Source of the DNA: an uncultured Gammaproteobacteria bacterium
Lineage (GTDB): Bacteria > Pseudomonadota > Gammaproteobacteria > GCA-002705445 > GCA-002716945
DNA length: 64,000 bases
Direction: 5' to 3'
Assembly (NCBI GenBank): GCA_902559355.1
Contig: CACEHM010000002.1
Coordinates: 62,001-126,000 of the forward strand
Shown here: positions 8,926 to 64,000 of the stretch, one piece after another
Layout: each line of letters begins with the position of its first letter
Numbering within the stretch: the first letter of the stretch is position 1
The notes under the pieces: model-generated
Databases searched by the model: none
Told to the model about the DNA's origin: nothing
What the model saw: only the letters and a program-made list of their open reading frames with translations
Translations under genes and position numbers: made by a program

Positions 8926-10260
8926 TCAATTCTTAACTCTTCTTTCTGTTGATTTTTCTATATTTAATCTCTCTCTATATTTCGTCACTGTCCTTCTGGC
9001 CACAGAAATTCCCTGATCTTCGAAGTATTTTGAAATTTGACTATCGCTTGAAGGCTTCATTTTATCCTCATTTTTTATGATTTCGTCAATCATTTTCATT
9101 ATCGCTTTCGAAGATACCATTTTACCAGTATCAGTGCTTAATTCTGACGAAAAGAAATACTTAAGTTCATATACTCCTCTAGGAGTTTGTACATATTTAT
9201 TATTGGTAGCCCTTGATACTGTAGATTCATGTATATCTAAAGAATTAGATATTTCTTTTAAGGTCATTGGGACTATTCCAATATCACCATCATTTAAAAA
9301 TCTTGACTGCCTTTTAAATATCTCATTACATACATTAAGTATGGTAATGTTTCTATTGCTGATAGATTTAATAATAAATTTTGCTTGATTATAGTTTTTT
9401 TCTAAATAATCTTTATCTGACTTAATTTTACTATCTCTCATCAATGAAATATATTCCCTATTCATAGTGAGCACAGGAGTATTCTTTGTTGATTCAACTA
9501 TCCACTGATTATTTCTTTTAAATATTATTACATCAGGATAGATATGATAAGTATTAAGCTTTTTAGAGATTATTAATCCTGGTTTTGGATTAAGTCTCTT
9601 TAAAAGAGCTAGAGTTTTTTCATTGGAAATTTCGTTATTATTTATTAATTTGACTATTCTATCAAAATTTAACTTTTCGTTAATATCTACTCCTTTAAGA
9701 GTATCCAGTATATGTTTTGCATCATCATAATAATTTGATTCTTTATGGTAATGATCTAGCTGAATATTTAACGAGTCACATAGGTCAATAGCACAGGTAC
9801 CAATAGGATCAAATCTTTGAAGGGTATGAAGTATATAGAATATATCTTGAAAAGATACTTCACTTATTCTGTTAGCTTGTATGAATATCTCTCTTAGATC
9901 TTCAGTTAGATAGCCGTTATCATCGACACAATCAATTATTATTAAAGCTACTTTTTTTTCTTCTTCAGAAAATGAAGACGTATCAAGCTGTTTATATAAA
10001 TATTCTCTTAAATTATCTGAGTCATGGTGATAGCTTAATATATCCTCAATATCAGCATTATTAGATCTTACAGAATGTTCTAAGTTATAACTAGGTTCCA
10101 TATCTATTTCTTTTTCAAGAAAAGGATTCTCAAGAATAATATTTTCTATTTCTTTGTGTAGGTCAAGAGAGTTTAGTTGTAAAATATTAATTGCTTGTCT
10201 TGTCTGGTGTGACAAGACTTTTTTTTGTTTTAGTTGAGTAGATTGTTTAAGTTTATTCAT
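8926..10260 (-). CDS. rpoN: RNA polymerase sigma-54 factor
   Basis: N-terminal QTRQAINILQLNSLDL, HESTVSRATNNKYVQTPRG, RpoN box ARRTVTKYRE. Confidence 0.96.
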   Translation of the reverse strand: MNKLKQSTQLKQKKVLSHQTRQAINILQLNSLDLHKEIENIILENPFLEKEIDMEPSYNLEHSVRSNNADIEDILSYHHDSDNLREYLYKQLDTSSFSEEEKKVALIIIDCVDDNGYLTEDLREIFIQANRISEVSFQDIFYILHTLQRFDPIGTCAIDLCDSLNIQLDHYHKESNYYDDAKHILDTLKGVDINEKLNFDRIVKLINNNEISNEKTLALLKRLNPKPGLIISKKLNTYHIYPDVIIFKRNNQWIVESTKNTPVLTMNREYISLMRDSKIKSDKDYLEKNYNQAKFIIKSISNRNITILNVCNEIFKRQSRFLNDGDIGIVPMTLKEISNSLDIHESTVSRATNNKYVQTPRGVYELKYFFSSELSTDTGKMVSSKAIMKMIDEIIKNEDKMKPSSDSQISKYFEDQGISVARRTVTKYRERLNIEKSTERRVKN

Positions 10261-10982
10261 AGTTTGAATTTTTGACCTAGATATACCTTTTTGACAGTCT
10301 CATTTTTAATCAAATCTTTTGTTTTACCTGAGGCAAGTACTTGTCCAGTATTTACTACATAGGATTTATCACATATTTTTAAGGTTTCTCTAACATTATG
10401 ATCTGTGATTAAGATACCTATATTATCTAGTGACAGTTCTTTAATTATTTCTTGAATATCTATTACGGAAAGAGGATCAATTCCTGCAAAGGGCTCATCT
10501 AAAAGTAGGAACTTAGGTCTTAAGGCTAATGCTCTGGCAATTTCAACTCTTCTCCTTTCGCCACCTGAAAGCTGCATACCTTGGGTATTCAAGAAATTTT
10601 TAAGGTCAAACCTAATAATTAGTTCATCAAGAATATCTTTCTTTTTCTGTTTACTCAATTTTTTGTCTGTTTCTAATATTGCCTTAATATTATCAAGTGC
10701 TGTCATGTTACGGAAGATAGAAGGTTCTTGAGGTAAATAACTAATTCCATATTCAAATCTTTTATGAATTGGCACCAAGGTAATATCTACTTCATCAATT
10801 ATTATAGAGCCCAAGTCAGATTTTATAAGGCCTACTATCATGTAAAAAGTTGTTGTCTTACCAGCTCCATTAGGACCAAGCAAGCCAATAACTTCACCAG
10901 AAGCAACCTCTAAAGATATATCTTGAACAACTTTTTTTGTATTATAATTCTTTTCAAGATTATTGCATTTAAGAATAGACAT
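10257..10982 (-). CDS. lptB: LPS export ABC transporter ATP-binding protein
   Basis: GLLGPNGAGKTTTFYMI Walker A, LSGGERRRVEIARALA signature, LLLDEPFAGIDPLSV; gene order. Confidence 0.95.
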   Translation of the reverse strand: MSILKCNNLEKNYNTKKVVQDISLEVASGEVIGLLGPNGAGKTTTFYMIVGLIKSDLGSIIIDEVDITLVPIHKRFEYGISYLPQEPSIFRNMTALDNIKAILETDKKLSKQKKKDILDELIIRFDLKNFLNTQGMQLSGGERRRVEIARALALRPKFLLLDEPFAGIDPLSVIDIQEIIKELSLDNIGILITDHNVRETLKICDKSYVVNTGQVLASGKTKDLIKNETVKKVYLGQKFKL

Positions 10983-10983
10983 A

Positions 10984-11652
10984 TTATTTAATGTAAAATG
11001 TTGTAGTAACTTTTTTCGTAATTATTTTTTTTAAATCATTTGCAGCTACGTCTTTGACTGTCCATTTCTCTTTATTAGCATCATAAATCATTTGATTACC
11101 TTCAATTATTCTAGACTTATCATTATCTCTTATTATTCTTTTAGCATTACTTAAAATTCTTATAATGCCAGTATCCATGTTAGCAGATAAACCTGAACCA
11201 GTCGTTGTGGAATCAGAAGTAATGATTGTAACATCACGATCAGTTTCAAATAAATTTTTTGATACATAGAAAATTGCATAAGATGTATACATCTTCATTG
11301 AAATACCATCTAGAAGATATTCTCTGTTAATAAATACATTATTTTTTAAATATATTTCTTCCATACTACCTGATGGATCTATGGCAGTATCAGATTTAAT
11401 GTCAACTGTAGATGTAGTCTTATATATATTGAGAAATGGTTTTTCGATTAGAGTTATATTATTGCTGTATTTTGTCAACATGCTTCCTTTAAGTTCCCAA
11501 TCAATGTCCATATCTTTGTTATTTTTTATCGTAGAAAAATTATATAATTGATTTTTGATCAAAACATTACTTTCTGACGAATTCCCAAAAACAGTTGTAC
11601 TTGAAAGAAGATATATAAAGAAGATTAGCCGTACTTTAATTTTACTAAGCAT
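10984..11652 (-). CDS. LptC/LptA (OstA-like) periplasmic LPS transport protein
   Basis: N-terminal TM/signal, LptC-like beta pattern (IYLKNNVFI...TDRDVTII...GSGLSANMDTGIIRILSNAKRII) followed by an LptA-like EGNQMIYDANKEKW tail; between kdsC and lptB. Confidence 0.75.
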   Translation of the reverse strand: MLSKIKVRLIFFIYLLSSTTVFGNSSESNVLIKNQLYNFSTIKNNKDMDIDWELKGSMLTKYSNNITLIEKPFLNIYKTTSTVDIKSDTAIDPSGSMEEIYLKNNVFINREYLLDGISMKMYTSYAIFYVSKNLFETDRDVTIITSDSTTTGSGLSANMDTGIIRILSNAKRIIRDNDKSRIIEGNQMIYDANKEKWTVKDVAANDLKKIITKKVTTTFYIK

Positions 11653-12187
11653 TAATTATTTTAGAAAAGTATATTAAATCACAGATATCTCGAATTGCCC
11701 CATTTCCTCCTTGTCTAGGAGTTACCCAGTCAAAATTTAATAGATTTAGTATTGGATTAGCATTTGGAACAATTACCGATAACCCGCAAAATTGTAGAAG
11801 TTCAACGTCAACGGTATCATCACCAACATAACATAACTTTTCTTTTGGTAGATTTATTTTTTGTTCGTGAAATGATTTTAGTTTATCCCTGCTACCTTGA
11901 ATAATTCTTTGGATACCAAGTTCTTCTCCTCTTTCTTCTACACATTTCGAATAACGACCAGATATAATCATTATATCAATATCAATTGATTGTAATATTT
12001 TTATTCCATGTCCATCTTGTGCGTAAAATCTCTTACTCTCGTTTCCATTATGATCAATATATAACCCGCCATCTGTAAGAACACCATCTACATCAAACGC
12101 TAACAACTCTATTTTACTAGCCTTATCAATAAGCTTATCTGTATATAATTCCTCAGCTAATTTTGTATATGTTGACTTGTTAATCAT
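11645..12187 (-). CDS. kdsC: 3-deoxy-D-manno-octulosonate 8-phosphate phosphatase
   Basis: HAD motif LLAFDVDGVLTDGGLYID, GDDTVDVELL; gene order. Confidence 0.94.
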   Translation of the reverse strand: MINKSTYTKLAEELYTDKLIDKASKIELLAFDVDGVLTDGGLYIDHNGNESKRFYAQDGHGIKILQSIDIDIMIISGRYSKCVEERGEELGIQRIIQGSRDKLKSFHEQKINLPKEKLCYVGDDTVDVELLQFCGLSVIVPNANPILNLLNFDWVTPRQGGNGAIRDICDLIYFSKIINA

Positions 12188-12188
12188 T

Positions 12189-13157
12189 TTAGTTAATAGA
12201 TTTAATTAGATCTTGCATGGTAATGATCCCTTTAATTACCGACTTATCTATTACAGGCAATGCGCTGATATTATTTTTCTCGAGAACTGATAATGCTTCA
12301 GCTGCAAGGATATCACCACTTACTTGTAAAGGCTTTCTTGTCATTACATTCTTGATTAGAATCTCATCGCTATTCTTATGATCATTCATTATTCTTTTTA
12401 TATCGCCATCAGTTATCACTCCTACTAATTTTTTTTCTTTATTTATAATTAAAGCGATTCCTAAATTATATTTTGTAGTCATATTGATAAGCTTAGAGAA
12501 GCTTGCATCTATATTTATTATAGGAATATTTCTCTTAATCATTATGTCATGAACATTTTTTAATAATCTTTTACCAAGAGAACCCTCTGGATGAGTCTTA
12601 GCAAAATCTTTCATTGTAAAATTCTTTTTTGATGAGACTGTCAAAGCTAAAGCATCTGAAATAGCAAGTGCACACATAATACTCGATGTTGGGGCTAGGT
12701 TATTTGGACAGGCCTCTTTAGTAACAGAGGCATCAAGCACTAAATCTGAATATTTAGCTAGCTGCGATTTTTTATTACCCGTGATTGAAATTATTTTACA
12801 TTTTAGAACTTTCAGCAAAGGAACAAGCTTTACTATTTCTTCAGTATCTCCTGAATTGGAGTAGAATATAATTACATCATTTGAATTAATGACACCCATG
12901 TCACCATGGAGAGCCTCTGTAGCATGTATAAAAATTGACGGAGTTCCAGTACTACTTAACGTGGCAGCCATTTTCATAGCAATATATCCTGACTTACCAA
13001 GACCTATTGTAACTACTTTTCCTGAGTTTTTTTTTATCAATTCACATGCTCTATCAAAGCTCGAATCAATCCTTTTCAAAGTTCTTGTTAGGGCCGTTAT
13101 CTCAGTTTTAATAATTTCTGTCGCAAGGCTAATATTAGATTTATTTCTCATCATCAT
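12189..13157 (-). CDS. kdsD: Arabinose-5-phosphate isomerase (SIS + two CBS domains)
   Basis: VVTIGLGKSGYIAMKMAATLSSTGTPSIFIHATEALHGDMG; CBS domains at the C-terminus; gene order. Confidence 0.94.
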   Translation of the reverse strand: MMMRNKSNISLATEIIKTEITALTRTLKRIDSSFDRACELIKKNSGKVVTIGLGKSGYIAMKMAATLSSTGTPSIFIHATEALHGDMGVINSNDVIIFYSNSGDTEEIVKLVPLLKVLKCKIISITGNKKSQLAKYSDLVLDASVTKEACPNNLAPTSSIMCALAISDALALTVSSKKNFTMKDFAKTHPEGSLGKRLLKNVHDIMIKRNIPIINIDASFSKLINMTTKYNLGIALIINKEKKLVGVITDGDIKRIMNDHKNSDEILIKNVMTRKPLQVSGDILAAEALSVLEKNNISALPVIDKSVIKGIITMQDLIKSIN

Positions 13158-14080
13158 TTTAAAATTAATATTAAGTATAAAAAGTATGTTATTACTAATG
13201 CCACTGAATATACAGTTCTAAACATACTTTTTGATTGAATAATAAGGTAGAGAACTAATGTTGACAATCCAAGCATAAAGATATCTCTTAAAAGAGCGTC
13301 AGATTCTATATGTGAAGCGCTGATAATCCCAGCAATCGACATAGCTATTGCAATATTAAAGAGATTTGAACCAATAATATTTCCAACTATAAAGTCGATT
13401 TTCCCTTTTCTAGCAGATTGAATACTAGCAGCAAGTTCAGGTAAACTTGTCCCTAAAGCGGCTAGCGTAAGACCAATCACATACGCGCTTACACCTAGAG
13501 CAGTTGCAATTTGAGTTGCACCATTTATGAAGAAGGTTGATCCGTATATTAACATGCCTAAACTTAGCAGCAGATAAAAAATTATATTTGATAAACTAGG
13601 TCCCCCTTTGTTATCTGCAAGCTCTTTGTCCTCTGGAGCTTGAAAATAATAAACGCATAGTATAAATAGTACAATCAATATTAAAGAGTCTTTTGCATCT
13701 AGAAGTTCATCAAAAAACATTAATACGAAAGCTGAAATAGATAATAAGATCATACTCACATAGGGCCTTATGGGTAGATTCTCTCTTATCAAATTTTTTT
13801 TAACAAAAAAAAGAGAAACACAAAATACTAAAGCAATATTTGAGATATTGGAACCAAGGACATTTCCTATTGCCAAAATTGTTTTATCTTGAAGAGCTGA
13901 TTCAATTGATATAAAAATTTCAGGTGCTGATGTTGCTATACCGATCATAAAGAAGCTTGCATAAAAACCAGATATCGAAAGGCGCTTAGAAGCATTATCA
14001 GTTGATGTGACTAAGATATTAGATCCTATTAATAATAGTGCCAGTCCTATTAACAAGATAGATATGGATTCTATCATCAT
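13154..14080 (-). CDS. Calcium/sodium antiporter (CaCA family, YrbG-like)
   Basis: Two inverted repeats GNVLGSNISNIALV and GNIIGSNLFNIAIA; 10 TM; gene order next to kdsD. Confidence 0.92.
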   Translation of the reverse strand: MMIESISILLIGLALLLIGSNILVTSTDNASKRLSISGFYASFFMIGIATSAPEIFISIESALQDKTILAIGNVLGSNISNIALVFCVSLFFVKKNLIRENLPIRPYVSMILLSISAFVLMFFDELLDAKDSLILIVLFILCVYYFQAPEDKELADNKGGPSLSNIIFYLLLSLGMLIYGSTFFINGATQIATALGVSAYVIGLTLAALGTSLPELAASIQSARKGKIDFIVGNIIGSNLFNIAIAMSIAGIISASHIESDALLRDIFMLGLSTLVLYLIIQSKSMFRTVYSVALVITYFLYLILILK

Positions 14081-14110: not shown

Positions 14111-14860
14111 CTAGTAGTTAATTTCAAGAACATCTATTTCAAAATCTTGGACATCTTTGCCATCCGCAATCATTTTTGTTCTTTTTTGCAGGTATGATTC
14201 CCTTAAAAATATATATTTGTCTTTTGCTGCAGTATCTAAGATTTTTGTTGCTTGCAACAAGTTCGCTCTAGTGTCTATAACATTAGAAGCTTGAATTAGT
14301 TGCCTTTCTTCATGATGGAGTTCTGTATGTACTGGTGAGATACTTCTCTCTACTGCTATGTCTGCATAGAATCCAGGCGCATCTCGGAGAGTACTAGGTC
14401 CAAGAAAAGGTAAAACTAGATATGGACCAGCTGGTACGCCATAATAACCAAGTGTTTGTCCAAAATCCTCTCTATGTCTCTCAATTCCTAGACTTGAAGC
14501 TACATCAAACAGACCAAAAACACCTACAGTAGAATTTAATACAAACCTCGTAGATGAAGATACGGTTTTATCTAGCTTTAACTGTAAAGCGCTATTAAAT
14601 ATAGTATTAATCTCTCCTAGGTTGTTGAAAAAGTTGGACACACTATCTTCAACTGGATCAGGAGTAATCGCACGATAACCTTTGGCAACCGGCTCTAATA
14701 CTGCATCATCAATTACTTCATTAAAACCAAAGATTGCCCTATTAAATGGTTCAAGCGGGTCATCATCTGATGAATATACATTTTTAGAATTAAGAGCTAA
14801 TAAAAAAGCCAGTGATATGGACAATAAGCCAAAGAAGTTTTTAAATTTAATCGGTGACAT
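14111..14860 (-). CDS. mlaA: MlaA/VacJ family protein without a lipobox cysteine
   Basis: DPLEPFNRAIFGFNEVIDDAVLEPVAKGYR, GVFGLFDVAS, EDFGQTLGYYGVPAGPYLVLPFLGPSTLRDAPG; start trimmed from the 15295 ORF because upstream residues are antisense to mlaC. Confidence 0.92.
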   Translation of the reverse strand: MSPIKFKNFFGLLSISLAFLLALNSKNVYSSDDDPLEPFNRAIFGFNEVIDDAVLEPVAKGYRAITPDPVEDSVSNFFNNLGEINTIFNSALQLKLDKTVSSSTRFVLNSTVGVFGLFDVASSLGIERHREDFGQTLGYYGVPAGPYLVLPFLGPSTLRDAPGFYADIAVERSISPVHTELHHEERQLIQASNVIDTRANLLQATKILDTAAKDKYIFLRESYLQKRTKMIADGKDVQDFEIDVLEINY

Positions 14861-14866
14861 AGTGAG

Positions 14867-14876
14867 ATTATATACT
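14867..14876. promoter_or_regulatory. Candidate shared bidirectional -10 region ATTATATACT between mlaA and mlaC
   Basis: Minus strand reads TATAAT (14872-14867), plus strand reads TATACT (14871-14876), inside a 28-bp divergent gap; no good -35 on either strand. Confidence 0.4.
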
Positions 14877-14888
14877 AAAATATGTAAC

Positions 14889-15470
14889 ATGATTAAAAAA
14901 ATATCATACTTCATAATTTTCATATTCATATCATCCAGTGGGTACACAACGGAAAAACCTGATGATTTCCTTAAAAAGTCGGTCCAGGAGGTAAGTGCGC
15001 TAGTATCTAAGCATAAAGATAGATTTGAGAAAGACGAAGATTTCTTAAGAAACCAAATGAACTTGGTTGTTATGCCTAAACTTGACATTATTCTCATGTC
15101 CAAAATTATACTTGGAAAAGGTATTTGGACAGATATGACCTCACAACAAAAAACTGATTTCGTAGAAGCATTTAAGTATAGGATGACGAGTACATACATG
15201 AAATCGATCACAGCATTTGATGGTGAGAAAATAGAATTCTTACCATTTGTTCCAGGAAAAAAAGACAGAATTGCATTTGTGAAATCAAAATACATAATGG
15301 CAGCAGGTAATATAGACGTTGATTATCGACTAATCAAAAATAAAGACGGCTGGAGAGTCTACGATATTATCTTTGAAGGTATTAGTTTAATGAAAAATTA
15401 CAGAGCAGACTTTAGAGAACATGTGAACAAAAATGGAATTGATTCGCTTATAATTAGTTTAGGACAATAG
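14889..15470 (+). CDS. mlaC: MlaC/Ttg2D family phospholipid-binding (HpnM-like) periplasmic protein
   Basis: Signal peptide [85 protein letters not shown] are typical of MlaC; start trimmed from 14682. Confidence 0.93.
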   Translation: MIKKISYFIIFIFISSSGYTTEKPDDFLKKSVQEVSALVSKHKDRFEKDEDFLRNQMNLVVMPKLDIILMSKIILGKGIWTDMTSQQKTDFVEAFKYRMTSTYMKSITAFDGEKIEFLPFVPGKKDRIAFVKSKYIMAAGNIDVDYRLIKNKDGWRVYDIIFEGISLMKNYRADFREHVNKNGIDSLIISLGQ

Positions 15471-15473
15471 GTT

Positions 15474-17933
15474 CTATTTAATTGGTTTAAGCGTGATAAG
15501 CATTCTTGGCAACAACGTTAAAACAGCAATTAGCGCAACAAGCATTGCAAAACCAGTCAATACTCCAAATATAATAGTCGGTATAAAATTAGAGAGAATT
15601 AGTATAGAAAACCCAAATATAACTGTAATGCCTGTGAAAAAAATTGCTTTTCCTATGGTTGAGTGGCAAATAAGTATTGTTTGTTCGTAGTTACCACAAA
15701 TTTTTAACTCCTCTTTGAACCTATAAATGTAATGAATACTGTTATCTACGGCTATACCTACAGTTATGGCTGCTATAGTAATAGTCATCATATCTAATGG
15801 TAATTTCATAATACCCATTATTCCCAAAACTAATAATGCTGAAATCAGATTCGGTACAATTCCTATAACCATTAATGTAATAGATTTAAATAAAATGAGG
15901 AACATAGTAGCTATAATTAACATTACAAAACCTAAAGATTTTATTTGAGAATCAAATAAACTTTGTAACATATTATTATAAAGAAGAAGAATCCCTGTAA
16001 GTGTAATTTTTTCTGTTTTAAGATATGGGTCTTGATTCAAATCATTTTGAATTTTATTTATAAGATCAGCTCTTCTCAAATCAGGATTTGAATCCAGAAT
16101 CCTGATATTAATTCTAGCTTCGTTATTATCTATAGATAGATAGGGAGTCACTGCAATATCTTTAACTTCATCAGGTAACTTTTTATAAAGCAGAGACATT
16201 TCAAGACTATTTAATTCTTTATCATCATTTACAATTTCAGCAACACGTATTGAGGACGCAAAAGATAAGACTTTTCCTATATAATAATTTTCATCTAAAT
16301 AATCATGAACATATTTAATTTTATTAATTTTTTCAGTTGTAAACCAGTTTGATTCAACAGGCTCATCTTCATCACCTAATAGATCTTCAAACTCATCATT
16401 TTCAGGAGTTAATTTTTTTTCGTCGTTGAATTTAATAATTACATCCATTGGTGTTGTTCCACCAAGTTCATTATCAATTAGCTGCATACCTTTATATATT
16501 TCTGTGTCTGATCGAAAGTAATTTATAAAACTATTTTCAACTTTTAGTAGACTTAAGCCATATATAGTTACTAGAGTCACAAGTGTAAATATAACGTAGA
16601 TTGATTTACCAGAACTAATAGTAATTCTACCTAAAAAATCAGTAACAAATAATTTCGTCTGATTTTCATGGACTATAGAATTTTTTCTATTTGAAAAAAT
16701 CATAATTAAACAAGGTAGAAGAAAAAATGATGTCAAAAATAATGTAGTAAGCCCAAGTACCATCATATAACCAAAATCCATGACTGGTTTAATATCACTA
16801 AATATCAGAGATGCAAATGCAACTATTGTTGTTAGAGCTGTATATAGACATGGCCATATCATTTTTTGAGTAGTTTGTATTATTGAAAGTCTTTTGTCTT
16901 GATTTGAAGAGGTATATATCTGTCGATATCTTACTATAATATGTATATTCATTGATAGGGTCAGTATCAGCATCAATGATATAAAATTTGATGATATGAC
17001 TGTTACTTTCCAGTCTAGATAGCCCAGCAAACCAATCATAAACAGAACAGAGTAAATACAATTAATTATCGGTGTCATTACCCATATTAATTTTCTAAAT
17101 ATTATTACCAATGTAGCCAAAATGAATACTAGAACTCCGAAACCGAAATTTATTAAATCATTTTTTATAAAAGTAACCATATCATCAGTAATCATAGGTA
17201 TACCGCCAAGCCTTATTTCATATCTATCGCTGGTATATCTTTCTTGAACTTCTCTAATATCTTTTATGAGGTTACTAATATTTCTTTTCTGAATTTCACT
17301 TACACTATTATATTCTTGTTTTGATAGTAAATATTGAGCCTCAAAAGAAGCATCCTGTGAATATTTTTTGTAATGTAATTCTTTTTCTATAAGTGCCTCT
17401 TTTAATTCTATATTCTTTTTAAGAGTCACTTGCATAGCTGTTGTCTTAGCATCTTGACTAATCACCAAGTCTTTATAAATCGGGCTTGTTAATATCTCTT
17501 GTTGAGCAAGTTCAGGATCTATATCTTTACTAAAAATATTTGGAACATTATTTATTAATTCTGTTAGAGGTTTTTTTGAACTACTTACAAGGGGGATATT
17601 AGTTATTGCAGTCACTGATTGAACACTCGCAAACTCTTCGATTTCTAGTGTTAGGTTATGTATGTGTTCAAGAGTCTCATTAGCAAAAATATCTTTATTT
17701 TTATCTGTAACTGTTAAAATTAAAAATTCATTTGATTCATATCGATCATTTATTTCTCTAAATAATTTTAGATCCTTGTCATCATCAAGTATTAGGGTGT
17801 CTGCAGATGCATCTAACTTAAAATTATTTATGTTACTCAACGAGACCGCAAGTATAATTGATAGTAGTGTGAGAACCAAAGCTGGGTAGCCTAGAATATA
17901 GTGTTCGTAAAAATATGATATCTTTTTAATCAT
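15474..17933 (-). CDS. MMPL/RND family lipid transporter (HpnN-like)
   Basis: 819 aa with two TM-loop repeats, large periplasmic loops, [40 protein letters not shown]. Confidence 0.88.
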
Positions 17934-17987: not shown

Positions 17988-19247
17988 ATGGATAAATTAT
18001 TAATTCAAGGCGGTCAATCTTTGTCTGGCTCTGTAAAGATATCAGGTGCTAAAAACTCTGTTCTGCCAATGCTTTGCGCATCTGTAATGCCTACAACAGG
18101 AGTCGTACAATTAGAAAATGTACCTCATTTACAAGACGTTACAACTACTACAAGATTACTAACACAAATGGGTGTCAGCGTTACTATGGATGAGTTTATG
18201 AATATTAGTCTTGATCCATCAGCAATTGATAATTTTTATGCTCCATATGATTTAGTGAAGACAATGAGGTCATCCATATTGGTATTAGGACCATTACTTT
18301 CAAGATTTGGTGAGGCAAAGGTTTCTCTTCCAGGTGGTTGCGCTATTGGATTGAGACCAGTGGACATGCATCTAAAGGCGCTTAAAAAAATGGGTGCTGA
18401 AATTAAAGTTGAAAGAGGTTACATCACTGCACGATCAAAGAGATTAGTAGGGGCTAATATTACTTTTGAGAAAAAAACAGTTACTGGAACAGAAAATATT
18501 ATTATGGCTGCATCATTAGCTAAAGGACTAACAAAAATTAGCAATGCCGCTAATGAGCCAGAAATTTCAGACTTATGTCTATTTTTAAATAAAATGGGAG
18601 CAAAGATAAGTGGATACGGTACTGACATGATTGAGATTGATGGAGTAGACGCTCTCAAAGGAACAAAACATAAGCCCTTACCAGATAGAATAGAAGCAGG
18701 GACTTTTATGATAGCAGCGGCTATAACTAGAGGAGATGTAGAGATAAACAATATTGTTCCTAAACACTCTTACGCTGTAATTGAAAAGCTTATAGAAGCT
18801 GGAGCAGAAATTACTTCTACTGATAATTCTATTAGAGTGAAGATGAGACAACGACCGAAGGCGGTTGACATAGAAACAAATGCTTATCCATACTTTCCAA
18901 CAGATATGCAGGCACAAATGACCGCTCTAAATTCTGTCGCAAAAGGCGACAGTTACGTTAGAGAGAACATTTTTGAAAATCGGTTCATGCATGTTCAAGA
19001 ACTTGAAAGAATGGGTGCATTAATAAAGGTTGACGATAATACCGCTACAATATCTGGGACAAAAAAACTTTTAGCAGCACCAGTAATGGCAACAGATTTA
19101 AGGGCTTCAGCTAGCCTGATATTAGCAGGACTAGCTGCTGAGGGAACTACAGAAATTGCAAGAGTTTATCACATAGACAGAGGTTATGACTGTATAGAGG
19201 AAAAACTACAGTTAATTGGGGCTAGGATTTCAAGAAAACCCATGTAA
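17988..19247 (+). CDS. murA: UDP-N-acetylglucosamine 1-carboxyvinyltransferase
   Basis: [27 protein letters not shown] catalytic Cys loop, [15 protein letters not shown]. Confidence 0.97.
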
Positions 19248-63183: not shown

Positions 63184-64000
63184 TTACTCTTTTCTCTTAA
63201 CTTTTATTAAACCATCAGATACTTGTATTACAAGCTCACATTGGGGTTTAACATCATTAATACTTTTTACAATTTTATTATTTTTATCTTTTACAATTGC
63301 ATAACCTTTGTTCAATATTAAATTAGGGTTAATTTGTTTTATTTGCTGAACTTTAAGATTAAGAAATTCTTTGTTAGCAATAATATTTGAATCTAAAGAT
63401 TTTTTTATATTTTTATATAATTTATTGATATCAATATTATAATCATCAACACTCATTAATATCTCTTTCATTAACTTGATCTGTCTATCTTTACAATCTT
63501 GTACAGACTTATGATTTAATTTAATTTTATTATCTATTACTCTATGCAATAATTTTCTCTGCTGGATAAATTCTTTCGAAAAATCAATAATGATCTTAAT
63601 AGGCTTGCTCATCTTAATAATAGTTAAAAAACCTTTTAATTTATTTTGCAATGAAATAATTAAATTATTAATTCGTTTTATAAATGAGATCTCAATATAA
63701 TGTATGTCTTGTTTAAGTGTTTGGATGTCTGGAACTGATTTGATAGCTGCAGCTGTCGGAGTTTCTTGTGCACAGTCTGATGCATAATCTGCAAGAGTTA
63801 TATCTGGTTTATGTCCAATCCCTGTAACCGTGGGTATTGATGAGGCAGAAATCTCTCTTACTAAATCTTCATCATTAAATGCCATTAGATCTTGAAGTGA
63901 ACCGCCACCTCGCACGATTAAAATGACTTGAACGATAGCATCTTTATTTATTCTTTTGAGTTGTTTAATTAAATTTCTTGGAGCCAAATCACCTTGAACT
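63184..64000 (-). CDS. xseA: Exodeoxyribonuclease VII large subunit (5' end cut by window end)
   Basis: VQGDLAPRNLIKQLK, VIQVILIVRGGGSLQDLMAFNDEDLVREI, PTVTGIGHKPDITLADYASDCAQETPTAAA; frame open to the window edge. Confidence 0.95.
   Translation of the reverse strand, partial: VQGDLAPRNLIKQLKRINKDAIVQVILIVRGGGSLQDLMAFNDEDLVREISASSIPTVTGIGHKPDITLADYASDCAQETPTAAAIKSVPDIQTLKQDIHYIEISFIKRINNLIISLQNKLKGFLTIIKMSKPIKIIIDFSKEFIQQRKLLHRVIDNKIKLNHKSVQDCKDRQIKLMKEILMSVDDYNIDINKLYKNIKKSLDSNIIANKEFLNLKVQQIKQINPNLILNKGYAIVKDKNNKIVKSINDVKPQCELVIQVSDGLIKVKRKE

Follow-up and report, generated by a model that had tools for sequence, protein, structure and literature searches.

MlaA, MlaC and an RND transporter in the slot of MlaFEDB: a probable modified Mla system in gammaproteobacteria

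The window described here is a stretch of 64,000 nucleotides from an uncultured marine gammaproteobacterium (assembly GCA_902559355.1, contig CACEHM010000002.1, positions 62,001 to 126,000), in which the slot between yrbG and murA is filled by mlaA (minus strand), mlaC (plus strand) and a gene for an MMPL-type transporter of the RND superfamily (minus strand), with murA (plus strand) beyond. To the left of mlaA lie rpoN, lptB, lptC, kdsC, kdsD and yrbG, all on the minus strand. Because mlaA and mlaC are divergent and mlaC and the RND gene convergent, with stops 3 bp apart, the three genes are tightly clustered without forming a single operon. The listed 394-aa open reading frame (ORF) of MlaA is over-extended and likely starts at ATG 14860, which leaves about 250 codons; mlaC starts at ATG 14889. 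These genes, with the strands of mlaA, mlaC and the MMPL gene, had been named in an original prediction made from the letters of the sequence, and Pfam and TIGRFAM matches confirm what it named. Judged from sequence evidence, the cluster probably represents a modified Mla system, in which MlaA and MlaC are kept, the inner-membrane MlaFEDB complex is lost and its place is taken by the RND protein.

Whole-genome searches of the window's assembly (1.04 Mb, 18 contigs, 93% complete) found neither MlaE (PF02405) nor an MCE/MlaD domain of any kind (PF02470), with a positive E. coli control for both; squalene-hopene cyclase (PF13243) was not found in the same genome, while other control genomes were positive. 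The original prediction had noted no ABC subunits, MlaD or hopanoid synthesis genes at the locus and had named a complete mlaFEDB operon elsewhere, or a hopanoid cluster, as evidence that would speak against it; neither kind of counter-evidence came up in the whole-genome searches. No MlaF ATPase or MlaB STAS gene lies within the yrbG-murA slot. MlaF is not separable from other ATP-binding cassette (ABC) ATPases by family search; loss of the ABC module is read from MlaE and MCE.

The collection holds 25 genomes of the order, all of them small (0.7-1.2 Mb). MlaC is found in 22 of these, representing six genera, and in all 22 it is flanked by the RND gene on one side and a divergent mlaA on the other, yrbG lying beyond wherever the flank is long enough to show it. 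Full-length RND was found in 11 other order genomes, each with the MlaA-MlaC-RND arrangement, and from this recurrence the arrangement is not a matter of chance. MlaE was also not found in G004 and G008, the other two of the three order genomes searched for it, and the PF13243 cyclase was not found in any of the 12 order genomes examined (the window's and 11 relatives). The cluster is absent from G012 and G013 (86-87% complete), which have no MlaC and no close RND; this may reflect joint loss or an unassembled locus.

A class-wide sample of 232 gammaproteobacterial genomes, each at least 90% complete, was searched for RND, MlaE, MlaC and MlaA. RND matches form two clear groups, one of long relatives with at least 31% identity (at least 254 bits) and one of other RNDs, which do not exceed 28% identity or 197 bits. 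MlaE is missing from 25 of the 232 genomes, five of which (G181, G185, G188, G193 and G223) were recognized by having the RND while not appearing among the genomes with a MlaE match. Nineteen of the 25 keep MlaC, and all 19 have MlaA and a close RND; the remaining six have neither MlaC nor RND, and two of them are of endosymbiont size. The RND is thus present in 19/19 genomes with MlaC and without MlaE, against 25/198 with both (Fisher p=1.6e-15, with the group threshold chosen after the scores were seen, genomes that are not independent, and four RND candidates scored per genome, so that RNDs in MlaE-bearing genomes could be undercounted). Counted by family, the figures are 14/14 for MlaE-lacking against 19/138 (p=4e-11), and with the window's own family excluded all of 16 still carry the RND. 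Seventeen of the 19 genomes are without any MCE domain, and the other two (G188, G193) have multi-MCE PqiB/YebT-like proteins only.

These numbers bear on the reading that a divergent or unassembled MlaFED is present and its absence an artefact of incomplete assembly or insensitive search. The incompleteness and fragmentation of the window's assembly, and the inseparability of MlaF from other ABC ATPases, speak for such an artefact, but we regard it as extremely improbable: MlaE is also missing from complete or near-complete genomes (G117 and G223, 100%; G008, G026 and G071, 99%; G181, one contig), the search was sensitive enough to reach MlaE at E=1e-14 in other genomes, MCE is absent too, and none of the three order genomes has MlaE. 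Family f126 (G149, G248; L163) matches MlaE very weakly (E=1e-14 to 1e-17). Downstream of mlaC in G248 comes an ABC ATPase gene that adjoins yrbG, and this family is possibly another altered Mla variant.

The RND gene adjoins mlaC and/or mlaA in seven families of the class sample (f1, f3, f24, f36, f48, f85 and f103), a linkage with a crude chance estimate of 2e-10. Outside the order, RNDs within the slot occur as kdsD-RND-mlaC-murA (G059) and as kdsD-RND-mlaC-bolA-grx-murA (Acidiferrobacteraceae SAT1475); RND-mlaC-bolA-murA is found in Thiotrichaceae UBA973, in RBG_16_51_14 and in family f103, and further linked forms are mlaA-RND-mlaC (f48), RND-mlaA-yrbG (f85) and RND-mlaC (G166). The MlaA-MlaC-MMPL neighbourhood, for which the original prediction had proposed a survey across gammaproteobacteria, recurs in the order, and the RND adjoins mlaC and/or mlaA in unrelated lineages as well. 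The suggestion in that prediction that an RND-MlaC-MlaA shuttle may replace the Mla ABC pathway gains strong support from this linkage and from the co-occurrence. The in-slot replacement, which it called the unusual part, is not confined to this organism: the candidate swap of motor is found in several gammaproteobacterial lineages. Family f103 holds two RNDs of the subfamily, each beside its own mlaC (L084/L099 in G126; L086/L100 in G231); it also has a hopanoid cyclase and, at a separate locus, mlaD-mlaE.

Of the 14 MlaE-lacking families, 11 still have mlaC in the mla slot without mlaFED, beside or near murA and often between yrbG/kdsD and murA. As read from gene order, mlaC is thus all that is left of the mla locus, and the RND is either part of the slot or located elsewhere. 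On a quick tree of the RND proteins, which has some long branches, the MlaE-lacking lineages are scattered; the unlinked ones force at least six changes on supported branches, and the in-slot RNDs require at least three. This scatter makes it probable that lines with the RND lost the ABC part on several occasions. In G062 (L131:4450-6364) the gap from mlaC to yrbG, the expected place of mlaFED, holds a transposase-like ORF fragment, recognized by eye, which is possibly a scar of the loss of mlaFED.

By its model matches the RND protein belongs to the MMPL family and there to an unnamed subfamily. Assignment to HpnN was rejected (TIGR03480, 102.6 against a cut-off of 751.9; NF052374, 72.8 against 1100; no cyclase), and the protein falls below the curated cut-offs of the HAE3 subfamily (TIGR00921, 170.9 against 351.9) and of BstA (NF045600, 19.1 against 1400). 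The label 'HpnN-like' given in the original prediction is therefore apt at the level of the superfamily and wrong for HpnN itself, both models of which are missed by a wide margin. Ten class-level relatives are likewise under curated subfamily cut-offs, including those of the HpnN models. Named relatives, with 72-70% identity in the RND, are the uncultured marine gammaproteobacteria AG-894-P10 and ERR599066_bin.47, and the solved structures closest by sequence are HpnN and MmpL3. An AlphaFold model (predicted local distance difference test, pLDDT, 83.7; predicted template modelling score, pTM, 0.78) has the RND fold with two periplasmic loops, at roughly residues 35-240 and 465-645, and in Foldseek resembles MmpL4/MmpL5/MmpL3, HpnN and NPC1-type proteins, with a probability of 1.00 to MmpL and HpnN. 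Across 70 relatives S314 and N316 are invariant, D730 is kept in 69 and H331 and H734 in 68, an intramembrane Asp/His pattern that is consistent with a working proton relay. Typical RNDs carry an Asp of the fourth helix in this relay; the pattern here is consistent with its replacement by His/Asn in the putative relay.

A protein of this kind might carry another envelope lipid (hopanoid, sterol, pigment or wax) and be simply a neighbour of MlaC and MlaA, themselves leftovers of a decaying Mla system. Many lipids are carried by RND/MMPL proteins, the closest solved sequences are those of HpnN and MmpL3, the 26 MlaE-bearing genomes discussed below share the RND subfamily, and only about 8 kb separate the RND of G147 from a hopanoid cyclase. 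We consider this reading unlikely, since leftover MlaC and MlaA would not be kept together with the RND without exception (19 of 19 cases, 14 families), both are intact, full-length ORFs, and the RND repeatedly adjoins mlaC/mlaA in unrelated lineages; moreover, the HpnN and BstA models are far under cut-off, and the cyclase, not found in the window's genome and its 11 order relatives, is above cut-off in only 6 of 54 RND-bearing genomes.

The AlphaFold model of MlaC (pLDDT 88) has lipid-bound MlaC/Ttg2D as top matches (template modelling (TM) score 0.76-0.83), among them the carriers of Bordetella, Pseudomonas and E. coli, and on this model MlaC retains the lipid-binding fold. The nearest solved structures of MlaA are those of MlaA itself (5nuo/5nuq/8i8r, E=1e-29 to 1e-32). 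The window's MlaA has no Cys before its DPLEPFNR motif, its signal peptide being without a lipobox cysteine. Across the window and the loci L002-L012 and L028-L049, MlaA of the window's genus has lost the lipobox cysteine, as have genera g4 and g6 from that family, and genera g2, g3 and g5 keep it (..GCST..); by its sequence MlaA need not be a lipoprotein. With the lipobox cysteine missing, such an MlaA probably stays in the membrane through its fold and its partners. The MlaA of family f48 apparently also lacks the lipobox cysteine. MlaA is absent from 45 of the 232 gammaproteobacterial genomes, many of which keep MlaC and MlaE (e.g. G055, G075, G079 and G081), and such cells may thus be able to replace, or do without, the outer-membrane partner as well.

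Relatives of the RND with about 50% identity are widely carried by SAR11; the match lies at about 7001-9400 in L170, L188, L213 and some 55 further loci of Pelagibacterales. In the three loci read, with genes named by eye, the RND has rpsF, rplI, dnaB, cvpA and purF-like genes as neighbours, with a dnaB-like gene on one side and cvpA/purF-like genes on the other. No mlaA or mlaC is found in the 7-kb flanks, the part of these loci that was seen, and this is one of several observations that weigh against a joint system of MlaC, MlaA and RND. In most MlaE-lacking families the RND is not next to mlaC, and linkage to mla genes is found in 5/14 MlaE-lacking against 2/19 MlaE-bearing families, which is not significant (p=0.11). 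Twenty-six genomes with MlaE, of which one has no MlaC, carry the RND as well; it therefore has a role for which the ABC system need not be absent. Finally, the residues of E. coli MlaC reported to bind MlaD (Y72, L76, Y82, I130, R134, R147, R153, A168, N179 and R186; PMC10245069) fail to separate MlaE-lacking from MlaE-bearing genomes, these positions being variable even across MlaE-bearing genomes.

Part of this evidence suits a further reading, in which the RND works on its own as an anterograde exporter of phospholipid, is widespread among Proteobacteria, SAR11 included, and makes the Mla ABC module dispensable, while MlaC and MlaA use another inner-membrane acceptor or act passively. RND proteins are usually exporters, the SAR11 RND has no linked mla genes, and most MlaE-lacking families have the RND apart from mlaC, as in G026, where mlaC lies beside murA and the RND elsewhere. 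The direct linkages RND-mlaC and mlaA-RND-mlaC in several lineages nevertheless suggest joint work, and 17 of the 19 genomes are without an alternative MCE acceptor; we judge an independent exporter to be quite unlikely.

The features of the locus are listed in Table 1. At the left border the yrbG-like protein scores 162 bits with TIGR00367, slightly below the cut-off of 180. The lipopolysaccharide (LPS) genes lptB (TIGR04406, 359 bits, cut-off 240), lptC (TIGR04409, 70 bits, cut-off 38) and kdsC (TIGR01670, 149 bits, cut-off 107) are above their curated cut-offs, indicating that LPS is made and exported and that the outer membrane bears LPS, the asymmetry of which therefore needs to be maintained. 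Promoter-like matches in the cluster region show no excess (22 against 24.6 in shuffles). Near the end of the window (63184-63987) an ORF resembling, by eye, the exonuclease VII large subunit is cut short, and its start is not real.

Table 1. Features of the mla slot and its borders in the 64,000-nucleotide window
Feature	Position	Strand	Description and match
mlaA	14111..14860	-	outer-membrane phospholipid-channel protein; PF04333 E=8e-75
mlaA-mlaC divergent intergenic space	14861..14888	.	28 bp
mlaC	14889..15470	+	periplasmic phospholipid-binding carrier; PF05494 E=3e-40
MMPL/HAE3-type RND transporter	15474..17933	-	819 aa; PF03176 (MMPL) E=1.5e-36; unnamed subfamily
yrbG-like gene	13154..14080	-	Na/Ca exchanger, left border of canonical mla slot; PF01699 E=9e-51
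murA	17988..19247	+	right border of canonical mla slot; TIGR01072 572 bits, cut-off 393
lptB, lptC, kdsC	10257..12187	-	LPS export, 3-deoxy-D-manno-oct-2-ulosonic acid (Kdo)

For the modified Mla system we infer a mechanism in which MlaC, with a phospholipid as cargo, would find its docking site in the RND's periplasmic domains instead of the MlaD ring, and in which the RND would be powered by the proton-motive force via the conserved intramembrane Asp/His residues. Transport could be retrograde, MlaC handing its lipid to the RND for delivery to the inner membrane in the manner of NPC2 and NPC1, or anterograde, the RND loading lipid onto MlaC in the usual RND direction. We put forward more tentatively, as somewhat short of an even prospect, that in a proteobacterial branch which includes very abundant marine lineages a proton-driven RND together with MlaC and MlaA moves outer-membrane phospholipids and has repeatedly made MlaFEDB dispensable.

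The direction and energy source of intermembrane phospholipid movement are an open question in the field. A natural swap from an ATP-driven to a proton-driven motor would offer a way to probe the direction of Mla; a concrete candidate motor is named here, and a new protein contact between MlaC and RND is predicted. The literature credits all Gram-negative bacteria with Mla (PMC11289387), and a phylogenomic study that regards MlaEFD as the ancestral core asks what Mla-less, LPS-bearing lineages use (PMC10665443). If the proposal is true, such an 'RND-Mla' would explain how some LPS-bearing bacteria can dispense with the ABC transporter of Mla. In the open-access literature no paper that connects MlaC/MlaA to an RND transporter was found, which is weak evidence, with subscription journals and bioRxiv outside the search.

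With the canonical system of E. coli, Pseudomonas and Acinetobacter (MlaA-MlaC-MlaFEDB, ttg2) the window shares MlaA, MlaC, the position between yrbG/kdsD and murA and an LPS-bearing host; it differs in having an RND instead of the MlaE permease and the MlaD MCE ring, and in that mlaA lies beside mlaC on the opposite strand. The system of HpnN and the MlaC-like HpnM likewise pairs an MlaC-family protein with an RND that resembles the window's in size and fold (5khn, TM 0.66), and the window's MlaC scores 70 bits with the HpnM model (cut-off of 160 missed), slightly above the 48 bits of the E. coli-type MlaC model; however, the window's RND reaches 102 bits against the HpnN cut-off of 752, there is no hopanoid cyclase, and MlaA is present. 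An RND and a periplasmic lipid-binding protein are also common to the BstA-BstB-BstC sterol transport system (PMC10942540), whereas the partner in the window is of the MlaC family and not phosphonate-binding-like, and the BstA model gives 19 bits against 1400. The lipid and siderophore exporters MmpL3, MmpL4 and MmpL5 are the best Foldseek matches (TM 0.67-0.70) and share the single-chain MMPL architecture, but identity is about 13% and no MmpS or AcpM partners are seen at the window locus. The handoff of cholesterol from NPC2 to NPC1 in eukaryotes likewise leads from a soluble carrier to a protein of the RND superfamily (NPC1 fold match, TM about 0.67); it is an analogy of mechanism only, with an unrelated carrier and a different membrane and lipid. 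Like the MlaEFD-only system of Veillonella (PMC10665443), the window has a reduced Mla with part of the six components, and the two are mirror images: Veillonella keeps MlaEFD without MlaA and MlaC, whereas the reverse reduction seen here keeps MlaA and MlaC without MlaE and MlaD, always in the company of one unnamed RND subfamily.

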